Shown here: positions 8,522-48,588 of the stretch, piece after piece
Layout: each line of letters starts with the position of its first letter
How positions within the stretch are numbered: position 1 is the stretch's first letter
Assembly (NCBI RefSeq): GCF_037975245.1
Contig: NC_092583.1
Location: 6,691,764-6,755,763 of the forward strand
DNA length: 64,000 bases
Reading direction: 5' to 3'
Source of the DNA: Apostichopus japonicus
Taxonomy: Eukaryota; Echinodermata; Holothuroidea; Aspidochirotida; Stichopodidae
Notes under the pieces: generated by a model
Databases searched by the model: none
The model's input: only the letters and a program-made list of their open reading frames with translations
Told to the model about the DNA's origin: nothing
Position numbers and translations under genes: made by a program

Positions 8522-8599
8522 ATCAGGACTCCAGCTGCTTTAATATATTCTCGTAGAACTAATTAAGCACATATCAAAAATGGCCAGCAAAGTAACCTC
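8522..8599 (+). CDS. exon 1: acceptor, short leader and start codon (coding 8580-8599)
   Basis: After a pyrimidine-rich acceptor ending at 8,521 comes a 58-nt leader, then ATGGCCAGC at 8,580. A occupies -3 and G occupies +4, a strong animal initiation context. The coding part is MASKVT plus two bases, then GTAAGT. The two leftover bases join the single A at 10,855 to make a serine codon and enter the propeller exon in frame. This phase match is the main support for such a short first coding exon. Confidence 0.65.
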
Positions 8600-11500
8600 G
8601 TAAGTATTATATTTTATATATTTTTTATTATTTTTTATAAATGATCCCAATGTATTTCCAGTATATAAGAAAAGTATTTTTCTTTACTTTACATTCACCT
8701 TTGCACAAGCAATGTGTATGCCGAAAATCTTTCATAAACAGATAAAAGACGTTCTCCAAATAACTCCTGAATGTGGGAAAGAGTTCAGTATCGAAGGGGG
8801 GGGGGGGTGGCATACAATTCCAAAGGGTAGTAGGACATCACGGTGTCGATTCTTTGGGGGAGGTAAAGCACAAAGCCATCTAAAATCACCGATAAAATGG
8901 ATCCTCTCTGCATTCTGCGCCACGAATGCCACGAATGCCATTATTTTAATACGACAACGATACAGCACCTTTCGATTGATTACTTTATGTATTAGTAAAG
9001 GAGCACTTCCTGTTTACACTTTTCCTAAATGTCTCCACAAAATGACTTATTTTAATACCAAAATGAAAAAGTCCGGCTATTGTCCAAAATGGGTACATCT
9101 TCTATGAAACAGAGCATTTCTTAACGTCTTTGTTACAAAACAGGAGGAACGTTGCCCCTCGTATCCTAGGCATCGGGTCAATCGCCCCTGGATTTAACAC
9201 AAAAGGTTTATGTCAAAGCTTAGCCTGGTAGACATAGAGGATGACTTTACTTTAGGTGCATAATTAAAGTCGATATGTTGTAGACCTTTAAAACACATAT
9301 GTTATCAGCCCATGTTGGATGTCCCTTTATACAAACGAGGTTCATCCCTTTGAAAGTACTGGACCGTACTTAGACTTATACAAAGTTCAGTTTCTCGGAT
9401 ATAACACAAAACTCACCGTGTAAGACGTTTATGGCCTCAAATGCCATGTTAAGATACATTGCAAATGTTCGATATCATCCAATGGTGCTTTATGTAGATA
9501 AAAGTATATGTTATGGTGGATTTGTTAGAATTTTTAAACAATGGATTAACAATAGATTTAGGATTGCACTGAGGCGCTCACGTCATCGATCCCTTATAAC
9601 TGATCATTCCAAAGTGTTGACATATTTTGAAGGTAAATATTTTGGAAACCTGTGTAGCTATAGAAACATAATCACTAGAAGTGAAACTTGTCCTTTGTTT
9701 TTTGGGACTATAATACGTCAAAAAACTCAAGACTAAAATTCTGTCTGAAGCCCCCCCGTGAAAACTTTAGACCAAGTTGGCTCCCTTTAATAGCGCCATC
9801 AATCATCATTAGCGGTGCCGTTTGACTTTTTTAGCTTTTTGGAATAGCGCCATCATTTACATCTTGTGACCGAGTGTCACTTTCTTTCAGTTTTTGGCGT
9901 TGAATGCGCATGAATTTATGTATGTGGTTAACACACAGGAAGAGTTGAATCAGAACGTTACACCAGTACATGCGTATGATAACGATGAATATTGAAGATA
10001 AATACATCGTGTTCGTGCAAACTAAATAAAGACTATGCAATTTCATCAATTTTACTGAAACTGCCTATTAACAAGGCCTATAGTCGATGTTGTTATATAT
10101 GTAAGACAAATTTGTGAAAGGAATATTTCATAAACACACAGTAATTAATTTCAAATGTTTGTCTATTAATCTCTGATACTTTAATAGGAAAGTATTTTAT
10201 TCGGTCGATTTTCCAATTTCTAGCACTTTTTACTCTGCTCGCCATATATACATGCATGCGGTCGACACGTTTTTCTTTACGTTTATGCGGCAGAGGGTTC
10301 TTAAGGGGAATATGCTATACTTGCTAGAAGTATTCGAAAAGTACTTTTCTGCAGGTCTCTACTCTCCAAATTGTTCTCAAACAGTTTTAAGGAATACACA
10401 AGATGACTAAATGTCCCAGTGAGGACAATTTTTTCGAAGGTCGTAATAAAATCAGTTTTAAAAATTTTGACCAAAGGTGACCATATTTGTGTATCTATCA
10501 TTTTTGGGGCCAATGCAGCATAACTTGAAGTCATGGATCTGCAGGGCCAGTATCCTAATTATTAGGCCTTTGAACGTCTCATTTCTTATATCTTCGAGAT
10601 TACCATGCCGATCAATTTGATGTGTACATTTCGTGCTATTGTGGGTCACGACTTTGTAGTTCCATGTATAAATCAACAGCTTTGAAATAAATAAGTGCCG
10701 TTTGTAAGACCTAGGCTATATAGCTATTTCGCAGGTTGAGAGCTGTTCATCAATATTCCTTCGATCTAAAAATCAACTCTAAATTCTTCGTTACCACGGA
10801 TACAACCTTCCAACCCTGACCTAACTTTTCACTTTTTGCCTTCCACACACACAGAGTGCATACAACGATACCGCGATTCACTGTACAAGATGGTGGTTTC
10901 GAGGTGTCGGCGATGGACGTGCTAGATACAGGCCGTTTGGCTGTCGCTGGATACAATAAGAAGACAAACTGCAGCTTTATTGATCTGTTTATGTTACAAT
11001 TTGATCCTGATTCTCAAGAAAAACCGTTATTATTGACGTCAGAGCCTTACTATTCTGAGGAATTTTTCGAGTTTGGTTCAGAATGGCGGTCTGTTTGTTT
11101 CCTGGATGATCGTCTGTTTTTAACGTGTTGTAAAAATACGATAACATTGTACGATAGTAGCAATGGCGGTCTGGTCAAGCAAGGGAAGTTTAACGGTACA
11201 GCCTGGTGTATGACAACCAGAGATGGGTTAGTCTATGTCGGTTTAGGATCCAATGAGGTGATTGTCTTAGATGCAAGAAAATGGAGAATAAAGAAGACAA
11301 TCACCTTAAAAGGATTAAGAGGTAGAGAATGGCCCGGGGATATAACAGTTAGTAATAATAAACTGTTTATCTGTACAGACTTTAGGAGAGCTTTAGTGTG
11401 TAATAGTGAGGGAGAAATAGAACAGGAATATACAAACACACAGTACAGATATGCATGTAGTATAACAGTCAGTGAAGAGAAAGGATTAATATTTATATTA

Positions 11501-14500
11501 TGGGGTAGTGGTGTGGGTAGACAAGTTGTTGTTTACTCTCTATGTGGGGGTCATTCTTCCATCTCTGGGGGTCATTCTTCCATCTCTGGTGGTCATATCT
11601 TGGCTTCTTTTAATGTTTCTCATAATTCCAGGAGAATCAGGATCAATAATAACATAAACATATTGTTTTTGGTTACTGGAACAACTGGAGAAGTATATGA
11701 ATATCACACAGTAAGTACTAATACAGGATTTATAGGCCTATGGTAAAAATTAGGACTATCACTTTTATTAAAGCAATCCTTTGATTGAAGCTTAACAAAT
11801 TGGGTAACATTCTATGCGAAAAAGTTAGGAGAAGATACTTTTACATGTTTTGAGATCTGCTTTGCAAAATTTAAAGAAAATTGAGAACATTTTTTTCCAT
11901 GTGATTTGCTGATTCTGATAAGGTTGTCTTGGAAGTGTTTCTGTCAATGTACAAATGGGAAATTTGTTTTCCTTATTATCTCAGCCTTCATGCTTCAAAT
12001 ATTGACAAAATTGGTACTAGGGAATGCGGAATTTTATTAAGAACACAACTTTTACTTGTTTGTTAAGAGAGAGATCAAAATGGTGGAAAATAGAGTGCAA
12101 AATTTTAGGAAAAATTAGGCCAGTGGATGCTTCTTACACTTTGCAATACTAAAGCAACACAATAAATTTGGCAAATATTTGTTCTTATTTTCTGAGCTTA
12201 TAAGCTGCTAATTTTTACAAATTTGGTATCAGTGAATGCGGAATTTCATTAAGAACATAACTATTACTTGTTTGTTACGAGGGAGATCAAAATGGTGGAA
12301 AAGTGAGTGCAAATTTTTTTTTCTTCAAAGTTTTAGACCATAGGATGCTTATTGCAAAGTGCAATAATACAGCAACACACAAAATTTGGCAAATATTTGT
12401 TCTTATTTTCTGAGCTTATAAGCTGCTAATTATTACAAATTTGGTATCAGTGAATGCGGAATTTTATGAAGAACACAACTATTACTGGTTTGTACAGAGG
12501 GAGATCAAAATGGTGGAAAAATGAGTGCACAATTTTATGAAAGTTTAGGCCATTGGATGCTCGTTGCACTTTGCAATATTAGGGCTACACACTAAACTTG
12601 GAAAAAAATTCTTATTTTCTGAGCTTACAACTTACAAGCTGTCAAAATTGGTATTACTGTAGTGAATGCAATCATATATAGTCTCAATAGTGCAATAAGT
12701 GAAATTTTGTTTGGCAATGATGTCTATATAATGAAAATCTAGGCCAACAATTCTATGAAAAGGGATGCGAGATGAATGGTGCATGGCATACAGCTCTGAC
12801 AATAAAGTATTTGTTTCTTTATCAATACTTTTGGTTGTCAAATATACAAATGTGACATAAATCAATGTAAAATGTTGTTAAAAACACCAGAGGTGCAATT
12901 TTCCATGATATGAGATAAATTTCAAGAAAAAGTAAGGGCAATATTTTTATCTTAATTTAGGCCATGGTGATTAGCTTGGCACTAGTTCACATGTATAGCA
13001 AATACTGCAGTGATAATACACGTCTTGATTTGATGACAGTATTAAAGTCTTGATAAAATGATATGACACAAGCTTGCTTCTATTTTGGGATGTAGTGCAG
13101 TTTATTTTGGTGCAAATAAGTCAAAATTGCAGATAAAGAAGGGAAAATTTGATTTTAGCCCGTGGTGCTAATTTTCACATGGTCAACAGAGTTAAGACTG
13201 CAAAATTCACAAAGCCATTGATATCATTTTTCATTACTTTTGAGGAGAGAAAGTTGTAGTTAAGTACAGGCTTTACTTTAATATGGATTGTATTGAGTCA
13301 GTTGGCAGTCTTATTTCAGTTCTATTCGAATTAGTTCATTTCACTGATGGCCAATGATTTCCAGTAATGCACAGTGTAATGTAGTCCTTATAAGTAACAA
13401 TATATAAGTAACAAATTTCGGATTAATTCCTGAGAAATTCCAAGTAGGTACAATTTAGTTGTACTACACTCATAATGAAGACCATATAGGAATAAGCAGG
13501 AAAATGGTGGCAAAAATGGAAAATGGACTGTGCAGTGTATTCCTGTCAATTTTGTGACAGTAACGATTATAGACATCACTTTGTGCAAGTGACGATACAC
13601 AATATCCTGCTCGATCGTCTAAATGTGCAGTACATTACTTAATTGTAGTGACCAAGCATACAGTGTAATGTATGCAATTGTTATGAACATGGATTAAACA
13701 TGATCATTACTATCCATTGCATAGGAGAGCATTTATACCACATGTCAACCAGTGTAAGAACAATGGTCTTCATGTAAGGCCTTTTTTGGTTTCGATGAAT
13801 ATCGTAACCTATACAGTATGCATTCATAATGGCGTATGTGTGTGTACGGGTGGGTGCGTGTGTGCGTTTGTGACCCCCAGCTTGTAAACACAATATCTCA
13901 AGAAGGGAAAGCGGGACCAACTTCATGTTTGGTGTGTGGATGTACCACATTGAGCACAAGTAGCCTATTGATTTCTGTGGAGGTCAAAGGTCAGTTGAGG
14001 TCACCAGGGGTCAAAATGTGGAAACCTTGTAAACACAATATCTCAAGAAGGGAGGCTTAGGCAGACCTCATATTTGGTGTGTAAATGTACCACATTGAGC
14101 ACAAGAAGCCTATTGTTTTCTGTGGATGTCAAAGATCATTTAGGGTCACCAGGGTCAAATTGTGAAAACCTTGTAAACACAATAGCTCAAGAAAGGAAGC
14201 TTGGGCAGACTTCATATATAATGTATAGAAGTACCACATTGAGTACAGGAAGCCTATTGTTTTCTGTGGAGGTCATTTAGGGTCGCTAGGGGTCAAAATG
14301 CCAATACCTTGTAAACACGATATCTCAAGAAAGGAAGTTGGGGCAAACCTCATATTTAATGTGTAGAAGTACCACATTGAGTACACAAAGCCTTTTGTTT
14401 TCTGTGGAAGTCAAAGGTCATTTGGGGTCACCAGAGGTCAAAATTTGAAAACATTGTAAACCCGTTATCTCATGAAGGGAAGCATGGGCTGACCTCATAT

Positions 14501-17500: not shown

Positions 17501-20500
17501 ATCAAACTTTATATGCGTATCTGGATTGACTCTATATCCAGTTGTATCTGGCTTTATATGGCCATATCAAAATGTATATGGATATCTAGCTAACAATTAT
17601 ATCAAGATATATCTGGCTTTATATGGCCAAATAAACTTAATATGCGTATCTGTATCTGGATTGACTCTATATCCAGTTATATCTGGCTTTATATGGCCAT
17701 ATCAAACTTGATATGGATGTATCTGGATTACAATTATATCAAGATATATCTGGCTTTATATGGCCATATCAAACTTTATATGCGTATCTGGATTGACTCT
17801 ATATCCAGTTATATCTGGCTTGAAGTTGATATGGCCATATCAAACTTGATATGGATATCTGGATTACAATTATACCAATATATATCTGGCTTTATATGGC
17901 CATATCAAACTTGATATGGATGTATCTGGAATACAATTATACCAAGATATATCTGGCTTTATATGACCATATCAACCTTTATATGCCTACTGTATCTGAA
18001 TTGACTCTATATCCAGTTATATCTGGCTTTATATGGCCATATCAAACTTTATCTATCCAGATATAGCCAGATATAAAACCAGATATGGAATTTGAGTAAG
18101 GGTTGTTTGAGTTCACCAGGGGTCAGATTGTGAAACCATGTCTTACACAATCTTTCAACAAGGACTGATGTCATACTTACTGTAGTATGTTGATGTATCT
18201 ATCACATTTAGTACAAGAAGCTTGTTGTTGAGGTCAATGGTCATTTCAGGACAGCCTGTGTCATTGTGAATTTATTGTTTGTCACATCCCACTGCTTTTC
18301 ACTTTATTACTAATATCAAGTATGTTGCACATCCTCACTATACATTATGTCAGATTCATGCAAAAAATAGCTGAATGTGACATCATTGAAACCACTATTC
18401 ATTTTGCATTCTGGTTATAAATGTCACCAGGCCATGTACTAGTAAATTATGTCTAACAGGATTAAGTAACCCAGGAAACTTGGTTTAGCATTATAGTTGA
18501 TAACTGCGAACAGTTTTCAATAATTACATGTTTCACATGCATTGTTTGTCATGAAGCTGTGTAAAGCTCATAGTGCAGTAGCTACACATAAAGTTTAGTG
18601 TATACACCAATCTTGAAGAAGTCTTGACAGTGCATATGGACTTTGATTATTCAGGCATTTGTGCTGCAGCACATGTAGTTTAGCTGTGCAACTTACAAGC
18701 ATAAACCATATCTTCCAGCCTATAGTGCTTCCAAGTAAGTTGTGTACTCATTCAGCACATATCTAATGCAAGATTGTAGGCTTAAATAAATGAATCTGTA
18801 AGTAAAAATCTGTGTAAAATACAACACTGCCTCAATGGTTGACATAGTAATTAATATGTTAACTCATGAAAAACAACACTGTTAATAATTAAGGAGAATG
18901 TAAGAGGTAAGAAGGGGTAAGGAAAGGGTGATTTGTGTGTGTTTTAATGTTACTGACCACCTACTGTACATTGCCCAGAGTAGAAGACAATTTAAGTAGT
19001 TCCCTGTCCATGATTACATTCCCATGCAAACATGGGTCACAATGTACATGTAGCTTTATTGGTTAAATTTAAAGAATAATGTTTAGCCCAATCAAGAATA
19101 ATTATAAGTTGGTGGCATCATTAAGGAAATCTACAACAATCTGACTGATACAGCTTCAGTATAGAAGCATTTACATGTACAACTTAACAATCAATCCATC
19201 CAATTGTCAGCTTTATAATACTATTATTTTTTTCTAAAATAAATATTGTAGTTGAAGTAACTCAGGTAAATCACAGTCACATTATCCATACCTTCATCAT
19301 ACTAAAAGAAATCCCTTCTTTGAATGTGTGTTGCTGTCTCAATGCCTCAAATGTCTTCTTCTATTTTGTTTTATGGTCTGCTACCACCAGTATTTTTATT
19401 TAATTTTTTTCCATTTTTGTTTGTAGAGTGACATCTTTACCTTTGATAACCTCCTGATGCGCTCAGAGTCATTGATTGAGAAAGATGATTGTAAGAAGCT
19501 ACTTGACTACTTTGAAGTTCCAGCTAAGAAATCAAAGGACATTACTAAGAGTGATGCACCCTTTTCATCTCTTGTCCACCATCTCAGAGAGGCAGGGAAG
19601 GTTTCTGTTGATGACATCAACTATTTAATGACAGCATGCTCTGACAAAGGACTTAGTAAATTGATGGCAGTATTGACCATCTACCAACAAGCTCAAGGTA
19701 TGTTTATATTAGAGAGCTTCACAAGTTAAACATGTTACACTATGTATGAATCAAAAAACATGCAAAAGCATTGCCAACACTTAGAATAGATGCGATTTGA
19801 GGTAACATGCCATTCATATTTGCTTTCTTTAATAAACCCTTGTGTGATACGAAAATGACCCTCAATTTTAACAATTTGATACAAATATTTTGATAAATAA
19901 GTTGGCAAGAAATTCAATAACTGCAATGGCCTATAAAATACTTCAACCCAGTTAAAGAGAATCCAATTCGGATGTTCAGAAGTGTAAATTATTTCACACT
20001 ACATATTTCATGCAAGTTCAAGGTCTTGCATTATAATCAAATCTTTGTATAAGTCTGTAACTTATGGGACACACTCAAAAGTTTGGATTGGGATATGTTC
20101 AGATGAGATTGTTAAAATATAGGAATTTCCTTTCCTCTTAAAATTTTGTAATTTAATATCCTTGCTATATTGGAAGATCATTGAAGGGCCTTGAATTTGT
20201 TCAATTGCTCAGAAGCAGGGCCAAAATCAACACTAAGGAAAGTAAAAGATTTGAAGTGTCACCTCAAATAACATGCTAAAGTTGGACCAAAATATGAGCT
20301 CACTAAATTTGGTGAAAGATTGTCACAATATTTTCCTGGAAGTTGTACAGCATAAATAATTAAGATACATGACCTGTGTTTATTTAAATAACTAAATCTC
20401 TTGGGTTCAAGACAGTTTTTAACCATGTTTGCATCTTATATGTTTTCTTTTCAGATTCAAAGTTTACCAAAAAAGTACTAAGAGATCAACTAAAGGCATT

Positions 20501-26500: not shown

Positions 26501-29500
26501 ATGTTTTCTGAGTGTAAAGTGTGACATATAGATTAATATACATATATACGGGGTAAAAAAAGCATAAAACATAAGGCATATCAACACCTGCAATGTCTTT
26601 CTTGTGAAATATTGTAGAAAATAAAAGCCTCATCTAATTCCTCTTTATTTCCTAATGTTTCTACTTTTTCTGTCATCACACCCCCCTAAAAGCTGAAGAG
26701 TATATTTATGATTTGGAAATCAATTTTCATCTAAAAAGGTGACAGTTAAAGTTGCTATGGTAACACAGATGCTTGTTGTGTACATGAGGAGTTACATCAA
26801 CAGTACTTCAAAAAGGAATTTATTCATATTCAAATTGATTATATCTTCTTCTGCTATTGAACTGATTTTAAAGAAATATACTTTGTTGTTATAGATTAAT
26901 GTGATACAAAGCAATCTAATAATCAAATGAAAAATTGGAAAATGTGATCTCATTGATTATTTAATAATCAGTTTTATCAATTGTTTTGTTGTGCTTAGTA
27001 TTATCTTTAACTATTTGTTATTCTTACTTTGATTTACGTTTCAGCTGATTACGGCAGATTAATGGTCAATGTTGCTGACGATCTTACTCTAGACAGCACC
27101 CTGAAATTAGCAACTCTATTTGGTCTACCACCGGGAGAAACTGATATGCTACGCCGGGTCTCTCAGTATGAGACACCAGGAATCACTCTGATTAACTTCA
27201 TGAAAACACGAAACATCATCAACATGTACGATGTCACTAACCTACAAAAGGGTTTGATTTATATTCAGCTAAACCAAACAAATGAAAATCTTTTAGCTCC
27301 ATATCAGTCTAAAGTTGACCCATTTCAGTTTGAAGAAAACCAATCTCCTGAACTGCTTGACTGGCCAGGTAGGAACGAATGTATGGATGCAATCAGAATA
27401 CATAAAACAAAAATAGTACAGTAAAAACTGTAGAAATGTGTGTGAGTCAGGCATTAACATTTAGCTTTCAGGCAATTTGTCACTTCAAACTACTAATTAT
27501 AATGGTGTATTTATGGTATAAATGATTACAAGTGGATCTTTTGACCAATTATATGTCGCCATTTAGTTTATTTCTTTATTGTACAAAGAATAAAATACAT
27601 AACTTTTCTTTAGTTTAGGTCCAAGGATTAGCTAATATTTCAAGGATCTATGTAAGCCATCTGGTCACACTTAGACACCATGCTAGATTCTTTTGATACA
27701 CCTGTTGTCTGCTGCCAATCATCAAATTCTCTAACATCATATTGCTTGTGTTACATATCTATTATTTTTTTTTCATTTTGATTCCTTCCATAATACCTCA
27801 GCTCTTTCACAAATCAATTGCAAGGCTTTTGTATTGTTGAAGAACGTTTCATTAATGTGGCTCAGTATGGCAAATGATGATAGTCGTAACCTTTGCATTC
27901 ATGATGCCGTATGTGTGGGAGTGTGTGCGTGTAAAAACGATATCTCAAGAAGGGGAAGGTCGGACCAATTCATATTTGGTTTGTAGAAGCCACATTGAGT
28001 ACAAGATGCTTTTTTTTGTGGAGGTCAAAGTCATTTAGGGTCACCAGGGGTCAAATTGTGAAAAACTTGTAAACATGCTATCTCAAGACGGGAAGTATGG
28101 GAAGACCTCATATTTGGTATGAAGGTGTATAACATAAAGCTAAAGAATGCTTTTGATTTTGGTGGAGGTCGAAGGTCATTTGGGGACAAAAGACCAAATC
28201 GTGAAAGCCTTCTAAGCTTGATATTGCAAGAAGAAAACCTTGGACAGATCTCATATTTGGTTTTTAGATGTACCATATCAAATTTAAGGAGCCTATTATT
28301 GCTTTTGGACAAGGTCAACGGTCATTTGAAGTCAACAAATGCCAAACATTTACCTCACTCCCCTCTTACCTGTCTCTTTACACTAACAGGTATTCTTAAA
28401 CATAATATTACAAGGGAAGCCTAGATAGATCGCATTTTGGGGGTATGGTATTGTACCACATTGAGTACAAGAAGCCTAATGTTGTGGGCAGAGTTCAATG
28501 GTCGTTTGAGTTCACCGGGGGACAAATGTCATATTTAGTTTGTTGATGTTCAGTATCTATCACATTTAGTACAAGAAGCCTGTTGTTCAGATCAATGGTC
28601 ATTTCAGGACAGCCTGTGTCATTGTGAAGTTATTGTTGTTACATCACACTGCTTTTCACTGTATTACTAAAAGATCAAGTATGTTGTAGACCCTCACTAC
28701 GTATACATTATGTCAGCTTCAGGAAGAAAACTGCTCATGTAACATCATCGAAACTACAATGCATTTTTGTGTTCTGGTTTTCTATATCAAAGCATTAGTT
28801 ACTGGTGATTGTGTTTCTATTATTCTATTTTTAGTTGAAAATGTCAAACTTGTCCCTGATGATGGATCAACTCCATCACAAGCTTCTGATGAAAGAGAGG
28901 AAGATTATGACCAGAGTAAGGAGAGTTTGATGGAGAGAACAGAGAGAGAAGAACTACCAAAACAAAGAAAAGATTCAACTATACTTGAAATGAGGCACAA
29001 TCACTCATACATTGAACATAGGATAAAATGTGAAGGTGGAACTATTAGCATCATGGGGGTACATCTGACTATTCCTGAAGACACTTTATCCTGTGAAGGT
29101 GTAATTTCTGTTAAAGTGATTTATGATCCTGACATACACCTCCCTGGAAGTGCACGTAGAGGCAGAATGACACCCCTGATCAAACTAGAGCCAGAAGGAC
29201 TCGCCCTCAACAAGCCAGCCCAGCTGACTATTCCTCACTCTGCTATTATCCCTGAGCCAGATCGACATGATGTTATTATCTTCACTGGTCTGAAAAATGA
29301 AGAAAATTTACAAGAAGGTAAAGATGGTGACCAAAGAACACTTTAATTGCATTTGATGTAAGCAGAAGTAAATTGAGTTAAATTCTGAGAATCAGTAAGG
29401 TAAAATATATCTAATTTAATAAGCTCTTCATATTTACTGTATTTAAGATTACCAAGTTAATATATTTTGTATCATATTACTTATTACAGGTGAAATCACT

Positions 29501-32500: not shown

Positions 32501-35500
32501 TAACCAATTTATTGTGTGCACGCACCAACGTTCTCCATGCAAAGGTTGCATGCTTCTTGTGGGCCAGTTGTGTACTTACTTGTGCATGTTAGTTGTGAAC
32601 ATTGCTCATTGTTCAAACCTGGCACACAATTAGCCTGTGATTCATGCAGTCTTAGTGATACATGCGAATCTAGTCTTCTCTCCTTTGAATGTAATGTGGA
32701 TGTTGTTGTCCTCACTTTCAGACTTAGACAAATATGAAAAGTTGAAAGGAGACATTGCAAAGCTTCTGGATAAACAACATTGTAAACAGCTAGGTATGGT
32801 CTTTGGGCTCACGCCAGCAGAAAATGAAACAATTCAGGAAGCAGCAGAATCTGGAAAGACGCTGATGAAAATATTGGATGAAAGAGAGCTCATCATGCCA
32901 GACAGAATGATCGGACTGTATGAAGGATTGAAAGCTATTCACTATAATAAGGTGGCAAGACTGGTGCTGGAGTACATTGATACGTCACAGGAGAAGAATG
33001 GAAAGGAAAACGGAGGAGAGAAAGATGATAAGAAAATGGTTTGTGCTTTGTAAAACATTGTTAAGACTTAACACTTTAAGCGTGAAGCAAAGCAAAAGTC
33101 AATTTGAATAAAATCAAGATCTTACAAGGTTAGAAGGCCTAGTACAGACTGTACTTTCTGATATGAAAAGTATTCTTTTAGCTGTTCTACAAGTCTGTCT
33201 GAAAATTCATCCTTGCACTAATGGTGACAGTTTCTGCTTATACCTAAAGTTACGTTTATATATATCAAATGTACAGGAGGTCTGTGTAGAAATTTACTTA
33301 GCCAAATCAAACACAGTAAATAGTTTTCTATCTTCATAAAGAGTTATAAAAAATGTGAAATTTATAAACAATTTGTACTATATCAACATTATTGTTTCAG
33401 GTAAAAGTTCCAGGGAAACCGGTAGTCATTTCAAAGAGGGAACCACAATTGTCAGTCAATTTCAAAATTTTGATAGAAGAGGGATACAAGAAACTGGATG
33501 TCCAAAGAGCCTTGAAATTGTCTCATGGAAAACTGGACTTGGGAAGACGGCTATTGCTGCTTGCTAAGGAAGAGCATGGTAAAGTACCCATATAGTCAGC
33601 TACATGGGTATATCTTATTTATGTCTTCCTGAATTTAGTAACTTAAATCAATCTAGGACCACATTTCGTTTCCTTAGCTGCTTCAGTGCTCATGGAAGAA
33701 AAAAATATTTTTATTTATATTTTTAGGAATATTACTCACAAATTAGCTCCAAAATAGAAATGTAATCTAGATGCTGTAAATAACCTACTTCTTGTTACTG
33801 TTAATGAAAATTTCTCTTCTACATCTATTTCCATTACTCACATCAAACATGACTTATGTTCACTCTTCCTCCTTTTATTATTGTAATATCTACAAATAGC
33901 CAAAAGATTAAAGCAGATTTGTGTTCAAGAGGCTATTTTCATGATGTGAATTGAAACAGTATATTTAATTAACAGATGTTTAATGATAGTGGCAAAATAC
34001 TTTCCTTTCACATGAAATATATTACTTTTCTCCTCCAGAGAGACTTCCTTTGTTCCCAGGGTCAAATCTTTATAAAGAACAATACTTTGATCAGCGTGGA
34101 GGAGAGATGTTTATCGCAGGTGTTAGCCTGCATGTACCAGCTGGGGCACTACACACTGGAAGGATTGTTAGTCTGTGGGTTTCTACTGAACCTGCCATTA
34201 AAGGACCTTCCTCAAACAAGAGTCTCAGGTTGACACCCTTTGTGAAATTTGGTCCAGAAAGCCTTACTTTACACAAGCCTGTCACATTGATTATTCCACA
34301 CTGTGCTTTCACTACAACTAACCAGATGGGTCTTGATGTGTACTCTGGTGTCTTACAAACAGGTCTGTTGTTTACTTTTGCCGTGTGTTTTTCTACTCCA
34401 GTGAGCGTTATATATAGTCAATAATATTTCTTTTATCACAGAAATATGTCTATGTGCTTGTGTGTACCACCTCTTGACTAGATGATATGCTTCAAAGTGC
34501 ATAATGGTGTTATTTGACACTGGGTGTGTGGTTCCATGTTAAATGAAGAAGAAAAATGCTTCTTCTGTAGAGGTCAAAGTCTGAAACATTGTAAGCAGAA
34601 TGATTCAAGAAAGGTTGTGTGAACTTCATATGTACTATTTAGAGTCACACTTGATATGTGAAACCACCTGAGTATACACACACAATATTGGGAAGAAATT
34701 CAGTAAGCCTTCTGACTCTGTGTAATGTAAAAGTCAATATCTCAAGAAGGAGGTATTTTCCATCTCCATTTCAAGAAACGTTTAGTTGTACTTTGAGAGC
34801 AAACATTTCAAATGAAATAAGCAACATTTCCAAAGGGAAATAATACCCTTGAAGCTGTGTTAAACTTCAGGGTTTTATCTAGTGACCTTGCATCCATGCA
34901 TAGAGTTAGAAAGATAATAGATTACTATTTTGATGTTCTATGTATGCAGTGATGCATTTTCTACCACCAGACTATCCCTTTAAAATCATCTGTGGTATGT
35001 GTTAGGATGGGTGTTCTACCTTCACCATGTTATAAAAACTTACAAGCAAAATGTTTCAAAATTTCCTTCAGATAATTCTGTCAAATGGAGCTTAGAAAGG
35101 AAACACCTCAGCTGCTCTATGAATAGTCAGCACCTTGCAGTTAAAGCTGAGAAACCCTGTCTCATTGGTCTTCATGTCCCTTTCATACCTAAGATGAGGA
35201 AGCGTGTTTGTATTTTACCGATTGTAAACAGAGTCTCTGATTCGGGGGATCAATTGACAATCCATCTTTGGTTTCATAATGATGACACACTCGAACATGA
35301 AGTAAGTAGCAGCTTTTGTCAGCTCAAGTGGTATTGCTAAATAACTTATGGATTCCAGTTGTCTGCCCTTCTGTATGACACATGGTTCATGGTTCATACA
35401 CAGAAGTGTACAGGGTTCATACATTGTTAACCATAGCTATTTAACGATGGAAATGGTAAAGTTCTAGCTTGATGCCCTACAAACTTAAACCTCTCCGACA

Positions 35501-38399
35501 GTCAATAGTGATGATGTAGGTAAGGGAAGGGTCAAGTGAGATAAGCTGGTTAAGGCTATCTGTGGTCATTAATGGTTGTAAATTATAACTTTGCAGTGGT
35601 CAAAAGCACACTGATCAGATGTCCTAAAACAAAATTGAATGTTAATAATTTATTGTTGGTGGTCATTGACAACTGACAACAAGTCAATTGTAAATAAATG
35701 TAATTACAGACACATTTGTAAACACACCTGACCAGGTGTCCAAGATTAGACAGCAAAGATTAATATTCCAGAACATAGGCTGTCAGACTATTAAAGATCT
35801 TTGATAATGCATCCTATCAGACACTCCATTATATTAGATATTCATAGTATCTCCTTTTATTTCTCGAAGAATGACCACACCAGAGAGGGCGATACGGGGG
35901 CGCAGTTATAGCTTCCTGGTCATACATAGGACAACTGAGCAATGTGTGCATTGTTGTTAATATTCAAATTTACATAAATAATCATATAATATTAAATTGT
36001 TTCATTTTTTATATTAATAGAGTCTTATCAATGAAGAAATCTACCAGCAAAAGGGAACCATAATTCATGATCCTGTGTTTGTTCATCTCAAATCTATGGC
36101 TTCAACTTTACATGTTAGCACTAACTCCAGTACCTCACAGTGTAACCCACATCCTAGAAAAGTGGTTAGTAATATTTGTTAAATATTTTTATTTATTTGT
36201 TGGCAACATGAAAAGAATGCAGCTAATTCCTGTTCCATGGGTAATTTGCATTTGTTGGAAGAAAAGTTATATGCATCTATTGAGTGGTATGTATATAATG
36301 TAAGCATATGTTGTTATTGAAATAAAACATTATCTTATTTTAAAATTGCCTCCTGCTGCCATTCCTATGATATTCAATTAATAAAAAGTGGTCAGATGGT
36401 CCCAGCTGCAGTTGTCTATACAGTTGATTTCATTCTGGAGAAGTCCTTCATTCCATCCTCATTGACTATCTATGTATCGATTATATAAGTACTTTGTAAT
36501 GTGTATAACTGTTATATATTTTTTATTTATTTGCTAATACGAATAATCATTCAGTTCAAAGCTTATAAGAGCTGAATAGAATATGAAGATGATAGTTTAT
36601 AGTCTAGCCTGAAGACCAAAGCCTTATCAAATGACTTTACAATCTCAATATGCATAATTGCATTAGTTGGTCATCTGTCAAAATAAAGTACGAAGCTACT
36701 TTACAAATCACTTTGCATTTTCCAATGTTTACACCTGGATGAAGACAGGCAGTTGATGTTAATTCCCCTGCCCAAGGCCAGATCATAACGATACAGTCGA
36801 CCAGTACTGGGACCTGCATTCTTTTAATTGCAAGCCTGGTGCTCTAACAACTTGACCACCATGTTAAAGGCTCTCAAAAGTTTGATAAATTAATAATCAT
36901 CACTTGATTTTTCTCACTTCAAGGATGTCACTATGGAAACCCTATGGTTGAAGAACAGACACAAGGTAGAATTCCATCTTCAAAATAAAGGGCTCAAAGA
37001 AACTGTCAATCTGGAAATAGAAGCAAGATATGGGATGTCAGTGAAGAGTCTATTCCAGTTTAATATTCAGTTGCAGGTAACTTGATTTTGGTTTACATTA
37101 ACACAAAGAAAACTTTGCATACAAGGAATTTAATGTTCACTTTGGATTTATCTTAACTACCGAGACTCCTTTTATATTTATTTATTTTGTTTTTTTACCG
37201 TTATTGCATTCTTTAATTCACTCATGTTTTTATTTCTATTGAAATCTCTACTTTGTTTGCCTAACTTGATGAACTGATTTCCGTAATGCAGGATTAAAAC
37301 ATAATGTATCCTTATTATAAGCCATCTTCATATCACAAATGTAATACATACCAAATATCATAAACAGTTAGTACTAATTAGCATATCTTAACATTATCAC
37401 TTAAAACCACAGTTTTATACACACTGTCAAATGATTAATTTCCTCTTCACAGATTGACAAATTACTACATATTGACCAAATCAAATCTCCATTCCAGCAC
37501 ATCCTACCGGAATGTGAGTATAATTAATTACATGATTAAAATTTAATAGCATGTTAATTAAATGTAGGCGATTGTATATAAAGTGGTGATGTTTGCTTTA
37601 CAGTCCTTTCATATGAGAGTGTACATGTACAGTAATCTTACTTTTCATACTGCCTACAATTCCTTACATATCAGATGTGTGTACCTAATCCTACTTTGCA
37701 TAGAGGAGTCCTGGCTGCAATTGCCATGCCAACTGGTAGACCAACTATCAGCTATTTGCAATATTTGATATTAAGGAAAATCAGTTCTGACACCAAAGCA
37801 ACAAATGTAAAGACTGGATATATAGAATGTATTGAAGTCTCAATGCAGTGTAAACTAACAAATGATGAAATTCAAACACCTGTGTTGAAAATATACATTC
37901 TGGAGTGAAATCAGATTTTATATTTAGCACCATTGAAAACTGAGCTTTTAAAGTTTATTTTGCCAGTGTGTGTAAGAAACACATCACTGTTGTCTCACAA
38001 TTCTGAATGTTTGCATGAAACAGGTTCTGATGAATTAACTGTATGTAGAGTAATGTATTTAATGTATTTCCAATTTCCTTTTCTTTCAACCTCACAGACA
38101 TCATCAAATCTTTTGATCTGCTAAAGCAGAACTTATCAGAACATCTTGATGTAGACCAATCTACCCTGCTGGCAAATATTTTCCAACTTCCCGGGGAAGG
38201 AATTACTGATATCAAGAAGCACAAAACACCAGGAACTCTTTTATTAGAGAAGCTGACCCAGAATTCACTGATATCTCCCACAAACATCACAAAATTGGAA
38301 AATGCCCTAACAGAACAAGGCAAAGAAGAAAGTGCAAAACTGGTCAGAAAATTCAGAAGTAAAAATCCTGTAGTTCAAGCAACAATGTGCCCAGAATAA
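8580..38399 (+). CDS. beta-propeller / multi-DED / double ZU5-UPA coiled-coil scaffold protein (20 coding exons)
   Basis: I joined 20 exons (8580-8599, 10855-11710, 19427-19697, 20455-22442, 23551-23688, 25322-25406, 27045-27368, 28835-29317, 29490-29716, 30152-30313, 31037-31189, 32046-32106, 32722-33038, 33401-33578, 34039-34362, 35072-35301, 36021-36164, 36924-37076, 37453-37513, 38098-38399). Every junction has GT donor and AG acceptor and compatible phase, and the coding sum is 6477 nt, giving 2158 residues plus TAA. Predicted domains: beta-propeller 1-292; DED-like about 300-380; coiled coil 383-1090; DED-like about 1125-1200; ZU5 about 1290-1385, UPA about 1389-1569, DED-like about 1590-1675; UBA-like about 1705-1750; ZU5 about 1760-1860, UPA about 1863-2038, DED-like about 2060-2145. 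No signal peptide or membrane segment is seen, so it is probably cytosolic. ZU5-UPA-death-fold blocks are known in PIDD1, UNC5 and ankyrins. A death-fold signalling scaffold is therefore likely, but the role is inferred. Confidence 0.82.
8600..10854 (+). other. intron 1
   Basis: Donor GTAAGT, acceptor CACACACACAG. It contains a G11-type run near 8,797 and otherwise ordinary AT-rich sequence. Open frames at 8,712-9,107 and 9,431-9,736 lack any recognisable motif. Confidence 0.6.
10855..11710 (+). CDS. exon 2: beta-propeller domain
   Basis: 285 full codons with repeated propeller-blade signatures: strand pairs such as AVAGYNKK, SVCFLDDRLFLTC..TITLYDSS, LVYVGLGSNEVIVLD, DITVSNNKLFICTD and SITVSEEKGLIFILW, at about 40-residue spacing. 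They resemble WD40-like or quinoprotein-like blades without strict WD dipeptides. About six blades fit in this single exon, so it probably forms a complete or nearly complete N-terminal propeller. One loop carries a short tandem repeat (GGHSSIS). The exon ends in phase 0 at a GTAAGT donor. Confidence 0.82.
11549..11595 (+). repeat. in-frame 21-bp coding minisatellite
   Basis: A GGGGGTCATTCTTCCATCTCT-like unit occurs twice plus a partial third, encoding GGHSSIS, GGHSSIS, then GGH. It stays in frame and sits between propeller strands, so it most likely lengthens a surface loop. Confidence 0.9.
11770..12660 (+). repeat. about 215-bp tandem repeat, three clear copies plus a decayed first copy
   Basis: GGTATCAGTGAATGCGGAAT recurs near 12,226 and 12,446, with variants near 12,012 and 12,650. 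Each is followed at the same distance by GAGATCAAAATGGTGGAAAA, then TTGGATGCT, GCAACACA and TTCTTATTTTCTGAGCTTA. The period is 214-220 bp. A more diverged unit appears to precede them from about 11,770. Confidence 0.85.
13876..15039 (+). repeat. 145-bp AGGTCA tandem array
   Basis: About eight units with the landmarks CTTGTAAACACAATATCTCA, a CATATTTGGTGTGTAGA-like block, TACCACATTGAGTACAAGAA, and AGGTCAAAGGTCATTTGGGG followed by TCACCAGGGGTCAAA. Several units contain a perfect AGGTCA-A-AGGTCA direct repeat. Diverged copies occur at 3.6, 18.1, 22.7, 24.7-25.25, 27.9-28.6 and 34.5-34.8 kb. Confidence 0.9.
15050..15800. repeat. 22-bp satellite array of CCATATATGG and CCATATCTGG units
   Basis: The unit is CCATATATGGCAAATCCATATCTGG-like, repeated with small changes. 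About fourteen perfect CCATATATGG palindromes occur. A larger block (15,058-15,235) is repeated about 294 bp on, at 15,352-15,530. Because the unit is palindromic and stop-poor, several overlapping frames stay open on both strands; these are not genes. Confidence 0.95.
15800..17000. other. unique core of the satellite-bearing element
   Basis: Single-copy-looking AT-rich sequence between the two satellites. No open frame of useful length and no transposase or RNA motif was seen. Confidence 0.5.
17000..18102. repeat. satellite array of TATATCTGGCTTTATATGGCCATATCAAAC units
   Basis: Units of about 60-65 bp alternate between versions with CTGGATTGACTCTATATCCAG and with CTGGATTACAATTATATCAAG, giving a higher-order period of about 125-130 bp. 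The TATATCTGG word is shared with the left array, and the final unit ends in the right inverted terminus. Confidence 0.92.
18103..18430 (+). repeat. right part of the interrupted AGGTCA-region repeat
   Basis: Continues the 145-bp repeat broken by the element and then a unique tail with TCAGGACAGCCTGTGTCATT, ACTGCTTTTCACT and a CATTATGTCAG block. The same order occurs at 28,503-28,785 in a later intron, showing that a longer segment including this tail was duplicated. Confidence 0.8.
19427..19697 (+). CDS. exon 3: first DED-like domain
   Basis: Ninety codons starting SDIFTFDNLL. The six-helix death-fold spacing is visible: LIEKDDCKKLLDYFEVP, then PFSSLVHHLREAGKVSVDDINYLM and GLSKLMAVLTIYQQ. 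The segment with charged residue, L, x, x, G, x, V, S, x, D, x, I, x, x, L resembles the helix 4-5 region of DEDs (EKGLLSEDNLxxL). The RxDL motif of helix 6 is not conserved. It could alternatively be a divergent death domain. Phase 0 in, phase 1 out. Confidence 0.72.
19698..20454 (+). other. intron 3, nothing recognised
   Basis: Donor GTATGT, acceptor TTTTCAG. AT-rich sequence without repeats or motifs that I can support. Confidence 0.6.
20455..22442 (+). CDS. exon 4: long coiled coil of 14-residue repeats
   Basis: 662 codons made almost entirely of a 14-residue unit (two heptads), typically TEEERQQLKDTLKA, alternating with versions containing SQRLN and TGRLK. Three units form a 42-residue (126-bp) block and two blocks an 84-residue (252-bp) superblock. 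E, Q, K and R dominate and Leu marks the core. The nucleotide repeats are highly alike, so copy number has changed recently by slippage or unequal exchange. The entry (DSKFTKKVLRDQLKALEDKR) and exit (AENKLKTLKDEKEELLQQQKE) are non-repetitive coiled coil. It probably drives homodimer or oligomer rod formation between two DED-like domains. Confidence 0.88.
20580..22350 (+). repeat. 42-bp coding tandem repeat, 126-bp and 252-bp higher order
   Basis: The nucleotide unit is ACAGAGGAGGAAAGACAACA followed by a variable 22 bp. Open antisense frames recur every 252 bp, a direct readout of the higher-order period. Variation is mostly in the variable half of the unit. Confidence 0.95.
22443..23550 (+). 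other. intron 4, contains a short AGGTCA-repeat fragment
   Basis: Donor GTTAGA, acceptor GTGACAG. Near 22,737-22,800 a perfect AGGTCA-A-AGGTCA and the following GAGGTTAAGTGAGGTCAA are a fragment of the 145-bp repeat family. Nothing else recognised. Confidence 0.6.
23551..23688 (+). CDS. exon 5: end of coiled coil
   Basis: Forty-six codons, ELEEAKSSLRATKDELVKSQ onward, with Leu and other hydrophobics at heptad spacing. Both edges are phase 0, so it could be skipped or duplicated without a frame change. Confidence 0.8.
23705..24252. mobile_element. possible small element with short inverted ends
   Basis: CTTTCCCAGAT at the left and ATCTGGGAAAG at the right are exact inverted copies. The interior repeats words such as ACGGGTT, CCGTAG and AACCCATA in both orientations. 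No coding frame or target duplication was found. Confidence 0.4.
24711..25255 (+). repeat. decayed 145-bp AGGTCA repeat units
   Basis: Landmarks GTAAACACAGTATCTCAAGA, GGTGGAGGTCAAAAAGTCATTTGGGGTC and GAGGTCAAAGGTCATTTGGG recur with the family spacing. Confidence 0.8.
25322..25406 (+). CDS. exon 6: short acidic linker
   Basis: Twenty-eight codons plus one base encoding ASYASVTADETLLEECETPD and onward. It is acidic and Ser/Thr-rich with no domain. The acceptor TTTGCAG, donor GTAGTA and phases fit exons 5 and 7. Confidence 0.6.
25407..27044 (+). other. intron 6, nothing recognised
   Basis: AT-rich sequence with acceptor CGTTTCAG. A G-run near 25,559-25,570 is the only notable tract. Confidence 0.55.
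27045..27368 (+). CDS. exon 7: second DED-like domain
   Basis: 108 residues. LTLDSTLKLATLFGLPPGETDMLRRVSQYETPGITLINFMKTRNIINMYDVTNLQKGLIYIQ has the helix spacing of the other DED-like exons: an L-x-x-x-F-G-L-P element, a TPG-x-T-L-x-x-F linker and an I-x-x-Y-D-V-T-x-L helix 5. Closest in pattern to the last exon of the gene (NIFQLPGEG, KTPGTLLLEKL, LISPTNITKL), suggesting shared ancestry. Phase 1 at both ends. Confidence 0.72.
27369..28834 (+). other. intron 7, second copy of the AGGTCA region
   Basis: Donor GTAGGA, acceptor TTTTTAG. The right half is the related copy of the intron 2 AGGTCA region without the 3063-bp insertion. Confidence 0.7.
27880..28785 (+). repeat. AGGTCA-region repeat, uninterrupted copy
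   Basis: Begins with the same TCGTAACCT...GCATTCAT lead as 13,800, runs through 145-bp units, a CTCACTCCCCTCTTACCTGT block (also at 14,895), TGTTGTGGGC, then GACAGCCTGTGTCATTGTGA and ends near TGTGTTCTGGTTTTC. The matching segment in intron 2 is 13,795-15,039 plus 18,103-18,430. Confidence 0.8.
28835..29317 (+). CDS. exon 8: acidic linker and first ZU5 domain
   Basis: 161 residues. The first 60 are a polar, charged linker (DEREEDYDQSKESLMERTER). From IKCEGGTISIMGVHLTIPED the ZU5 pattern is clear: G-G-x-I near the start, hydrophobic-x-IP-x-x-xL, then VKVIYDP, MTPLIKLEPEGLALNKPAQL and TIPHSAIIP. In ZU5 domains the TPxxxxxPxGxxFxKPxxLxxPH block is the hallmark, and it is present here. ZU5 domains act with a following UPA domain, as here. 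Phase 1 at both ends. Confidence 0.9.
29490..29716 (+). CDS. exon 9: start of first UPA domain
   Basis: Encodes GEITWTEEKSVDWKLEPERI onward, with WKLEPERISLDINILSYVFV and IFRIVPFIDG. Position and beta-rich pattern match the ZU5-UPA junction. In PIDD1, NLRP1 and CARD8 this area carries the HFS autoprocessing site; here the corresponding stretch reads N-I-L-S with no preceding His. Phase 1 in, 0 out. Confidence 0.75.
30152..30313 (+). CDS. exon 10: first UPA domain, middle
   Basis: Fifty-four codons, phase 0 at both ends. LGNYTTFQVTRTLNDGRDYA is beta-strand-like. Corresponds to exon 17 in the second module (144 bp, also phase 0-0). Confidence 0.75.
30314..31036 (+). other. intron 10, nothing recognised
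   Basis: Donor GTTTGT, acceptor CCATTAG. AT-rich sequence without repeats I can name. Intron 9 (29,717-30,151) is likewise featureless. Confidence 0.55.
31037..31189 (+). CDS. exon 11: first UPA domain, end
   Basis: Fifty-one codons, phase 0-0, identical in length to exon 18. Shared positions include VSHQFRLKRN against KVEFHLQNKG and VDVKLKVS against VNLEIEAR, consistent with old duplication. Confidence 0.78.
31190..32045 (+). other. intron 11, contains a SINE
   Basis: Donor GTGAGT, acceptor TTCTTTAG. The only recognisable content is the tRNA-derived SINE at 31,388-31,611. Confidence 0.7.
31388..31611 (+). mobile_element. tRNA-derived SINE with (CATA)n tail
   Basis: TTAGCTCAGTGGTTAAAGCC is a Pol III A box, and GGTCCCGAGTTCGAGTCACT contains the B box (GAGTTCGAGTC) at tRNA spacing. 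A unique body with CAGAGTTGTTGACAATTCAT follows, and it ends in TACATACATACATG. A second copy at 56,327-56,460 shares head and body, proving a dispersed family. It cannot be a functional tRNA: the acceptor stem does not close. Confidence 0.85.
32046..32106 (+). CDS. exon 12: short connector before third DED-like domain
   Basis: Sixty-one bp, phase 0 in and 1 out, encoding VKHILLSPESQEILFREQNP. Exon 19 has exactly the same length and phases. Confidence 0.75.
32107..32721 (+). other. intron 12, nothing recognised
   Basis: Donor GTGAGT, acceptor ACTTTCAG. A short imperfect duplication (CAGGTAAGTGTGCATTAGTA / CAGGTGAGTGTCAAAGTAGA) near 32,224-32,300 creates donor-like sequences that probably are not used. 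Confidence 0.5.
32722..33038 (+). CDS. exon 13: third DED-like domain
   Basis: Encodes about 85 residues of death fold: YEKLKGDIAKLLDKQHCKQL, MVFGLTPAENETIQEAAES, KTLMKILDERELIMPDRMIG and LVLEYI, then a Lys/Glu-rich tail (EKNGKENGGEKDDKK). The LDERELIMPDRMIGLYEGL segment resembles DED helices 4-5. It follows the first ZU5-UPA directly, as a DD does in UNC5 and PIDD1. Confidence 0.78.
33039..33400 (+). other. intron 13, nothing recognised
   Basis: Donor GTTTGT, acceptor TTGTTTCAG. AT-rich. Confidence 0.5.
33401..33578 (+). CDS. exon 14: UBA-like three-helix segment
   Basis: Fifty-nine codons plus one base. After a basic lead (VKVPGKPVVISKREPQ), the stretch FKILIEEGYKKLDVQRALKL then SHGKLDLGRRLLLLAKEE has the UBA pattern: hydrophobic helix 1 ending in G-Y/F, V-x-R/K-A-L in helix 2, N/H-G-x-L/V-x-x-A/G in the turn and a Leu-rich helix 3. 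UBA domains bind ubiquitin. The assignment is by pattern only; a short death-fold linker is the alternative. It is the only exon between the two duplicated modules. Confidence 0.55.
33579..34038 (+). other. intron 14, nothing recognised
   Basis: Donor GTAAAG, acceptor CTCCTCCAG. AT-rich. Confidence 0.5.
34039..34362 (+). CDS. exon 15: second ZU5 domain
   Basis: 108 residues. YFDQRGGEMFIAGVSLHVPA then GALHTGRIVSLWV, LRLTPFVKFGPESLTLHKPV and TLIIPHCAFT reproduce the ZU5 hallmark block and align position by position with exon 8 after its linker. Phase 1 at both ends, as exon 8. Confidence 0.9.
34363..35071 (+). other. intron 15 with decayed AGGTCA repeat
   Basis: Donor GTCTGT, acceptor CCTTCAG. 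Around 34,545-34,770 there are degenerate 145-bp family words (TAGAGGTCAAAGTC, GTCAATATCTCAAGAAGG). Confidence 0.55.
35072..35301 (+). CDS. exon 16: start of second UPA domain
   Basis: Encodes DNSVKWSLERKHLSCSMNSQ onward, then HVPFIPKMRKRVCILPIV and LTIHLWFHNDD. Aligns with exon 9 (V-x-W-x-LE; VPFI). The autoprocessing position of ZU5-UPA proteins is not Ser here. Phase 1 in, 0 out, 230 bp against 227 bp in exon 9. Confidence 0.75.
35302..36020 (+). other. intron 16, nothing recognised
   Basis: Donor GTAAGT, acceptor TTAATAG. A short CpG-bearing stretch near 35,880-35,905 is the only local oddity. Confidence 0.5.
36021..36164 (+). CDS. exon 17: second UPA domain, middle
   Basis: Forty-eight codons, phase 0-0 (SLINEEIYQQKGTIIHDPVF onward). 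Equivalent of exon 10. Confidence 0.68.
36165..36923 (+). other. intron 17, nothing recognised
   Basis: Donor GTTAGT, acceptor ACTTCAAG. AT-rich. Confidence 0.5.
36924..37076 (+). CDS. exon 18: second UPA domain, end
   Basis: Fifty-one codons, phase 0-0 (DVTMETLWLKNRHKVEFHLQ onward). Same size as exon 11. Confidence 0.78.
37077..37452 (+). other. intron 18, nothing recognised
   Basis: Donor GTAACT, acceptor CTTCACAG. AT-rich. Confidence 0.5.
37453..37513 (+). CDS. exon 19: short connector before last DED-like domain
   Basis: Sixty-one bp, phase 0 in and 1 out (IDKLLHIDQIKSPFQHILPE), matching exon 12 exactly in length and phase. Confidence 0.75.
37514..38097 (+). other. intron 19, nothing recognised
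   Basis: Donor GTGAGT, acceptor CCTCACAG. AT-rich. Confidence 0.5.
38098..38399 (+). CDS. exon 20: fourth DED-like domain and stop codon
   Basis: 101 codons with stop TAA at 38,397-38,399. IKSFDLLKQNLSEHLDVDQS, LLANIFQLPGEGITDIKKHK, TPGTLLLEKLTQNSLISPTN and ITKLENALTEQG show six helices, with the LISPTNITKL stretch close to the DED helix 5 consensus. A short basic tail follows. In PIDD1 and UNC5 a death domain holds this terminal place; here the pattern favours a DED. Confidence 0.8.
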
Positions 38400-48100: not shown

Positions 48101-48568
48101 AGCCCCGAGTCTGTCAAGACCCGAGTCTGGGACACAGTTAAAGTCTCCGACCATGACACATGGTGCACTACCAGGAACAAAGGAAGGCAGCGTGTTAAAA
48201 AATTCTCGTCTAGCAGAAGGCCGATTGGGAGCATACACATTGCAGAGGGAGATGTTACCCTGTGGATACTTGAAAAGAATGCAAACCAATCGGCCCTCGT
48301 GATCCGTCTCCACCCTAGGGGCACAACCCGCCTGACGAGGTGACAGAAGGATGACAGTGCCACAGGATGAAGACGAACCAAACGAAGCATGCAGCCCACC
48401 ACCCCACTCATAAGCCCATAGAGGGACATCTTCTTCCAAAATATGTGTTTCTTGCAGGCAAACGCAGTCGACCTCCATTGAAATACAATATTGGAAAATG
48501 CGACTGCGCTTGCGATGATCCCTCATGCCATTCACGTTCAAAGTGGCAACTGAAAATGTATGGGCCAT
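45178..48568 (-). pseudogene. LINE ORF2: endonuclease-reverse transcriptase, split into three frames
   Basis: Starts MAHTFSVATLNVNG at 48,568. Endonuclease motifs: TLNVNG, LQETH, NVYAPN, GDFNCVPD, RIDRVY and LSDHDTVV (catalytic E, D, N, D, H all present). Middle region with STSQWWDD and a basic stretch. Reverse transcriptase motifs: GKSPGSDGLP, RPITLLNVDYK, VSLDQQKAFDMVD, RGVRQGCPLSPLLYV and CAQYADDVTCV, followed by a C-terminal Cys/His cluster (CPRTGCDS, AHVFWHCPF). The frame changes near 47,840 within an oligo-C tract and near 47,272 within an oligo-G tract. No other break is seen over about 1,100 codons, so it is either a very recent pseudogene or an intact gene with sequencing or assembly errors. 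It ends at 45,178. Confidence 0.9.
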
Positions 48569-48588
48569 GAGAGGGCAATGGGGCAAAA

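Follow-up and report, generated by a model that had tools for sequence, protein, structure and literature searches.

What could a gene do that joins a predicted beta-propeller, four death-fold-type domains, a long coiled coil and two ZU5-UPA units in one protein? The question is raised by a locus of the sea cucumber Apostichopus japonicus. The analysis covered the window, that is, the whole stretch of 64,000 nucleotides (C23:6691764-6755763), and a genome search over 671,581,487 bases in 35 contigs. The reading favored in this study is that the window gene is a germline-diversified, NLR-related death-fold sensor belonging to a large receptor family. The probability of this reading is put at about 0.6; the immune role, ligand binding and signalling are inferred, without transcript, protein or ligand data.

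Gene model and conservation of splice places

A total of 20 exons were joined on the forward strand from 8580 to 38399, giving a single frame of 2158 amino acids closed by a TAA that ends at 38399. The protein order is propeller, DED1, coiled coil, DED2, ZU5-UPA-DED3, linker and ZU5-UPA-DED4. A translated search of the window against six paralogous regions supplied conserved blocks, and exon ends were read from the sequence. AG is present ahead of exons 2-20, GT is present behind exons 1-19, and the phases agree at all 19 junctions. Phase agreement alone is weak evidence because phases had guided the choice of splice sites, and the real test of the gene model is the conservation of splice places in paralogues.

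When the splice places were projected onto five paralogues (P1, P3, P4, P5 and C11a), 80 of 90 acceptors had AG, and 77 of 85 donors had GT, at precisely the codon-aligned position. The donor count includes P4 exon 12, the end of which was shifted four codons by hand, and 76 is therefore the fairer figure. Only in-phase places near the expected one were tried, so the evidence lies in the exact place and not in the phase; exons without a match (P5 exons 4-5, C11a exons 4-6) are omitted from the counts. Among the 18 non-exact places, 16 sit one to nine codons off. The P1 exon 4 acceptor was misplaced because of the repeat and has the same sequence as that of the window, and no acceptor was found for P3 exon 4 among the in-phase places near the expected one. 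Most splice places are still exact in P5 and C11a, where exon identity is 39-81%. The window and all five paralogues have an uninterrupted frame over exons 7-20, given that one splice guess in P4 is moved and a doubled end stop in P5 is disregarded. Joined models were obtained over exons 2-20 for P1 and P4, and over exons 7-20 and 2-3 for P3, P5 and C11a, the last with a stop within exons 2-3.

Exon 1 (8580..8599, + strand, as are all exons below) is modelled as 20 nt carrying the ATG, the first residues and a phase 2 donor. It is also present in P1 and P3, with a candidate in P4, and a pattern search in P5 found none. At the end of the propeller exon, GT occurs at the identical donor place in all 37 close propeller exons fetched (GTAAGT in 35), and the propeller exon is therefore not the last exon in these copies. 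The propeller and DED1 are separated by about 1.1 kb in P5, and intron 2 of the window gene measures 7.7 kb. The earlier note had claimed one 20-exon gene with all phases agreeing, and this claim held, with one frame of 2158 amino acids and splice places largely kept in five paralogues.

Two features of the surrounding DNA were also recorded. Intron 2 holds four tandem arrays (11998-12538, 13881-14753, 15214-15745 and 17120-18052). Outside the gene, a non-LTR retrotransposon-like block with reverse transcriptase, endonuclease and zinc-knuckle frames lies at 45178-49950 on the reverse strand, with a GC content of 0.44-0.54 versus about 0.36 in the gene.

Domains of the protein and the duplicated cassette

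Single-sequence Pfam scans were weak or empty for DED2, DED4, UPA and the propeller, and for this reason family profiles and models were used. Sequence matches of the propeller exon (exon 2, 10855..11710) are weak, its profile reaching only E 0.025 against PDB sequences. The model from one sequence has a pLDDT of 62, with residues 81-220 better and blade 1 of low confidence. When compared with the PDB it matched 875 chains at E<=0.001, the listed rows being mainly G-beta and other WD40 proteins, with Z up to 19.1 over 244 residues and NHL domains of 276-282 residues among the rows. The exon 2 product is accordingly a model-based prediction of a beta-propeller, clear in its fold matches and weak in its sequence matches, probably with six blades as judged by eye.

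The coiled coil (exon 4, 20455..22442) comprises 663 amino acids of 14-residue repeats, with 41 motifs, 14 residues in 38 of the 40 gaps and no proline. Exon 4 varies in length between copies (1988 nt in the window, 1148 in P1 and 824 in P4). The end of the coiled coil (exon 5, 23551..23688) is 93-100% identical in P1, P3 and P4, and a linker follows (exon 6, 25322..25406). No membrane span was suggested in the window protein, the highest mean (1.42, over 19 residues) falling within the propeller.

The four DEDs are encoded by exon 3 (DED1, 19427..19697), exon 7 (DED2, 27045..27368), exon 13 (DED3, 32722..33038) and exon 20 (DED4 and the stop codon, 38098..38399). Matches to Pfam DED are weak for DED1 (E 0.025, 15.2 bits) and DED3 (E 0.0058, 17.3 bits), against a cut-off of 35.9 bits. 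DED2 and DED4 alone gave no Pfam DED match, and no window DED exon reaches the gathering score (best 17.3 vs 35.9 bits). A profile of the four DEDs and 20 genome relatives ranked cFLIP at the top (1.3e-4), ahead of viral FLIPs and the Pelle death domain (0.011). Among its 24 members, Pfam DED was found in 14 and Pfam Death in eight (E up to 0.1); the best E among the A1 members was slightly better for Pfam Death (1.1e-4) than for DED (2e-4). AlphaFold2 predicted six helices for DED2 with a pLDDT of 81.7, from an alignment of the window's four DEDs only. The closest structures to this model are the DEDs of vFLIP, cFLIP and PEA-15 (Z 12.7), and the ankyrin-G death domain scores Z 11.7. Foldseek E-values for DED2 were all >0.1, with many probabilities near 1, and the Z of 12.7 is just below 13, the warning level for helical bundles. 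The DED assignment is thus a prediction resting on profile and fold together, and the distinction between DED and DD is narrow. DED1, DED3 and DED4 are assigned as death folds by homology only, DED3 and DED4 each coming after a ZU5-UPA unit. Elsewhere in the genome, 20 DED exons at C16:10.2-11.1 Mb exceed the Pfam cut-off; by inference, they could supply partners or be another expansion.

Two ZU5 domains were identified above the Pfam cut-off of 21 bits (33.5 and 50.5 bits), ZU5a in exon 8 after an acidic linker (28835..29317) and ZU5b in exon 15 (34039..34362). The UPA regions that follow span exons 9-12 (29490-29716, 30152-30313, 31037-31189 and 32046-32106) and exons 16-19 (35072-35301, 36021-36164, 36924-37076 and 37453-37513). 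No Pfam match to UPA was found in the window exons scanned. The assignment is supported by position, by a profile alignment to UNC5B extending beyond ZU5 (columns 16-157) and by repetition of the region in both halves, and UPA is the least certain part of the architecture. A profile of nine cassettes matched ZO-1 (6e-9), UNC5B (7.5e-9) and ankyrin-2 (0.0015) in ZU5 and cFLIP (0.035) in the DED part. The window's two ZU5-UPA-DED cassettes align with each other (94 identities in 407 columns, E 4e-19) and have exon phases as well as 153-nt and 61-nt exons in common, from which it follows that the cassette arose by internal duplication. Ig, LRR, ankyrin-repeat and TRADD-N domains had no match in the window exons scanned. 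NACHT was found neither in the ten window frames scanned nor for the window gene in the genome NACHT list, which was limited to 106 of 488 candidates.

The autocleavage motif HFS/SFS at the ZU5 end is absent in 11 of 12 modules. An HFS string occurs in unit b of P4 (C16:4.05 Mb), and HLS is present there in the window gene, P1, P3 and P5. The P4 string was set aside as a cleavage site, being off the Leu677 place by manual count in the UNC5B alignment. Since the usual motif is missing, the NLRP1/PIDD route is unlikely; since unit a has Leu-Ser near the Leu677 place in all six copies, atypical cleavage is not excluded.

The claimed combination of a propeller, four death-fold-type domains, a coiled coil and two ZU5-UPA units also held, with UPA least certain, and the six-helix death fold on which it depended was predicted for DED2 and is assigned by homology only for DED1, DED3 and DED4. 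A UBA domain proposed for exon 14 (33401..33578) is unsupported, as this linker has no Pfam match. Our analysis adds to that earlier reading a family of copies, the duplication of the ZU5-UPA-DED cassette and the occurrence of a separate DED after each ZU5-UPA unit.

A family of copies and the variable face of its propellers

Counts of marker exons show that the window gene is one of about 40 similar copies in the sea cucumber genome. Single-exon searches found at least 126 propeller, 109 ZU5, 97 DED2, 54 DED1 and 70 DED4 matches, counting also the more distant ones. A total of 325 typed matches (57 propeller, 53 DED1, 57 DED2, 54 ZU5a, 48 ZU5b and 56 DED4) were chained by place and strand, omitting C12 rows, distant relatives and second fragments; several source lists were limited to 150 scored candidates. 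Propeller, DED1, DED2, ZU5a, ZU5b and DED4 occur in order on one strand in 42 of 73 chained units, defined by these marker exons and spanning 18.5-45.5 kb. By contig, these ordered units number 14 on C15, 14 on C23, eight on C19, four on C16 and two on C11. Six further units lack only the ZU5b match, and the partial chains include six with a propeller alone, two with propeller and DED1 and two with DED2, ZU5a, ZU5b and DED4. Stops fall inside a marker match in six of the 42 ordered units, in the propeller (C11:2880717, C16:6197806, C16:6236376 and C19:3874999) or in DED4 (C15:26520918, C15:25698979 and again the unit at C16:6236376); these six are possibly dead.

Pairwise Nei-Gojobori counts were made for 21 loci (20 of the 40 fetched propellers and that of the window). 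Mean dN/dS was 0.91 for the propeller (dN 0.121, dS 0.132), 0.23 for DED2 (0.047, 0.202) and 0.33 for ZU5b (0.061, 0.185). Among the 210 pairs, dN exceeded dS in 68 for the propeller, two for DED2 and none for ZU5b, and the propeller ratio was above that of ZU5b in all 210 pairs and above that of DED2 in 208. Compared with P1, P3 and P4, the window propeller gave 0.79, 0.69 and 0.87, most other exons being lower; values near or above 1 were obtained in single comparisons for DED3 (1.04), exon 11 (1.54 and 1.28) and exon 6 (1.40). Recombination among copies can mimic positive selection, a caveat on the propeller ratios, and in the propeller tree three of 36 inner branches are well supported and 19 are open.

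Analysis of 39 propellers, excluding L028 (which has a stop) and four distant ones, revealed 35 hypervariable sites among 285, several with ten or more residues. The D-A and B-C loops of a propeller lie on one face. Of the 30 hypervariable sites in blades 1-5, 23 fall on this face, taken as these loops with the adjoining strand ends (58 of 242 sites, P 6e-11), and one falls on the opposite face (74 sites); the loops alone, with 38 of the 242 sites, hold 16 of the 30 (P 2e-7). The D-A/B-C face has pN 0.26 and pS 0.17, the opposite face has pN 0.05 and pS 0.11, and pN is above pS in strand D too. The hypervariability cut-off of 0.3 and the added strand ends were our choice, and faces were taken from model strands for blades 1-5 only. 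The P values are only a guide: sites are not independent, recombination among copies is unmodelled and the tree is poorly resolved.

Relatives bearing NACHT were found on contig C12. One of them, P7, has a propeller, two DEDs, NACHT (Pfam E 3.5e-16) and one ZU5, with no UPA or death fold after the ZU5 in the stretch fetched; within C12, DEDs were examined in P7 only. Chaining used 56 propeller, 46 NACHT (45 from the list plus that of P7, entered manually) and 69 ZU5 rows. Propeller, NACHT and ZU5 occur in order in 31 of 88 chains, P7 included, and a propeller and ZU5 without NACHT in 14, the NACHT list being limited to 106 of 488 candidates. Of the 30 sites that vary most among 23 C12 propellers, 26 lie on the same face as in the window subfamily and none on the other, with 20 variable positions common to both subfamilies. 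Their variable face has pN 0.23 and pS 0.09, the other 0.045 and 0.037. A further relative, P6 (L014-L015, C11:7513001-7531000), carries a propeller, a ZU5 and a downstream Death domain (E 3.6e-15), with no DED match.

Three side observations concern the wider genome. The C12 array of propeller, NACHT and ZU5 exons is large, at about 23-34 Mb. C7 and C16 carry numerous NACHT exons whose open frames are nearly equal in length (on C7 about 512 aa), as other NLR-type expansions. COX1 pieces with TGA codons lie at C29:14745-31219, besides the full gene on C35. The C35 gene reads TGA as Trp and has Lys and Arg at positions where animal COX1 carries Asn and Ser, consistent with the echinoderm mitochondrial code.

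Interpretation and comparison with known systems

The gene model, domains, duplication, family, one-face variability and NACHT-bearing relatives are shown by computation; ligand binding, oligomerisation, gating, partners and immune role are inferred. A propeller face that changes in two subfamilies, with little change on the back, is the pattern expected if varied ligands are recognized, and the DEDs, ZU5 and NACHT-bearing relatives point, by inference, to death-fold signalling. In the proposed mechanism, the propeller loop face would recognize varied, fast-changing ligands and the coiled coil would join copies to one another, as NACHT would do in the C12 subfamily. A coiled coil is reported to enhance death-fold filaments in CARMA1 (PMC7794386). 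The ZU5-UPA-death-fold of UNC5B is closed at rest. The two ZU5-UPA-DED cassettes would likewise be gated signalling heads, shut at rest and opened upon binding. Clustered DEDs may then seed a filament with DED partners (inferred to be FADD/caspase-8-like), leading to cell death or inflammatory signalling. The idea that the propeller recognizes and the coiled coil assembles, already put forward in the earlier note, gains indirect support from one-face variability and the NACHT-bearing relatives and is still an inference.

A bolder reading, which could as easily fail as hold, is that the genome carries a germline repertoire of about a hundred propeller receptors of about six blades with a single hypervariable face, which would make them the animal equivalent of fungal HNWD receptors. 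C12 members would signal through NACHT; the window subfamily would instead rely on its coiled coil and two ZU5-UPA-DED cassettes, as an NLR-related receptor without the motor. If so, an animal without lymphocyte receptors diversifies recognition by varying one propeller face across many tandem genes, and this diversification sits on two different signalling chassis. The ligand of the face, the replacement of NACHT by the coiled coil and the reason for the doubled ZU5-UPA-death-fold unit would then be testable. A. japonicus is farmed, and the family may bear on disease resistance.

Among rival explanations, two are unlikely. The first is self/non-self recognition (allorecognition): instead of sensing pathogens, the protein would use its variable face to read variable proteins of other individuals or of its own body, like fungal het-d/het-e. 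In its favor, fungal NACHT-WD40 proteins have the same design principle, recognizing HET-C variants through a hypervariable propeller surface (PMC12222747, PMC4986451); against it, there are many loci here and not a few known polymorphic ones. The second is an inhibitory decoy, in which a NACHT-less subfamily would cap or titrate NACHT-bearing relatives or caspase-8-like DEDs, like cFLIP. The window gene has no NACHT found, its variable face is common to the C12 subfamily, and its DEDs are nearest to cFLIP/vFLIP in profile and fold. However, four DEDs and a long coiled coil favor clustering, and the FLIP resemblance is only at fold level and silent on sign.

It is very unlikely that two or more adjacent genes, e.g. 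propeller, DED1-coiled coil and DED2 to DED4, duplicate together. The partial chains and the long intron 2 would agree with this, but the donor after the propeller is conserved in every close copy fetched, exact splice places are mostly kept in P5 and C11a, and the propeller lies close to DED1 in P5. Equally improbable is a structural or developmental UNC5/ankyrin-like scaffold with a propeller merely under relaxed constraint: ZU5 is common to UNC5B, ZO-1 and ankyrins and overall propeller dN/dS is near 1, yet relaxation alone would neither focus change on one face (pN 0.26 vs 0.05) nor repeat the pattern in the C12 subfamily.

Returning to the sensor reading, comparison with known proteins revealed partial likenesses. 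The order of a ZU5, a tentatively assigned UPA and a death fold resembles that of UNC5B, PIDD1 and ankyrins (profile E 7.5e-9 to UNC5B). The window gene differs from these in having two cassettes of DED type, with neither an Ig, LRR or ankyrin-repeat match in the exons scanned nor a membrane span seen. NLRP1 and CARD8 (FIIND-CARD) also have ZU5-UPA followed by a death fold, and NACHT is present in the C12 relatives. Unlike them, the window gene lacks SFS/HFS at the cleavage place, has DED and not CARD, two cassettes and a propeller, and has no LRR match in the exons scanned.

Among marine invertebrates, lineage-specific DED/TRADD-N expansions joining death folds to propellers have been described (Kaur et al. 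2021, PMC8195603), together with Branchiostoma propellers highly variable in sequence, attributed to recombination, and a mention of UPA-ZU5 fusions. TRADD-N, however, was not matched in the window exons scanned, and neither the double ZU5-UPA-DED architecture nor the one-face pattern was found in the relevant sections of that paper. NACHT-Zu5 and NACHT-WD40 proteins are reported from early-diverging animals in a Dysidea paper (PMC12909245); these resemble the C12 relatives, whereas the window gene differs by its duplicated cassettes and by the lack of any NACHT match. In Chiridota, 24 NLRs with death/DED domains are reported (PMC8913654).

For hypervariable propeller receptors, only fungal work was found in the open-access literature searched. 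Fungal NACHT-WD40 proteins (HNWD; HET-D and HET-E of Podospora), the receptors of HET-C variants, have hypervariable sites under diversifying selection on the interaction surface of the propeller and form a multigene family (PMC12222747, PMC4986451). The likeness lies in a propeller sensor that is hypervariable on one surface and encoded by many genes. The window gene differs in having no NACHT found, in its DEDs and ZU5 and in an N-terminal propeller; HNWD repeats are 80-100% alike and the window's blades, by eye, are not. By analogy, and with no homology claimed, HNWD receptors are the nearest functional analogue of the window family. No propeller-DED-coiled-coil-(ZU5-UPA-DED)x2 protein was recognized in the open-access literature searched.
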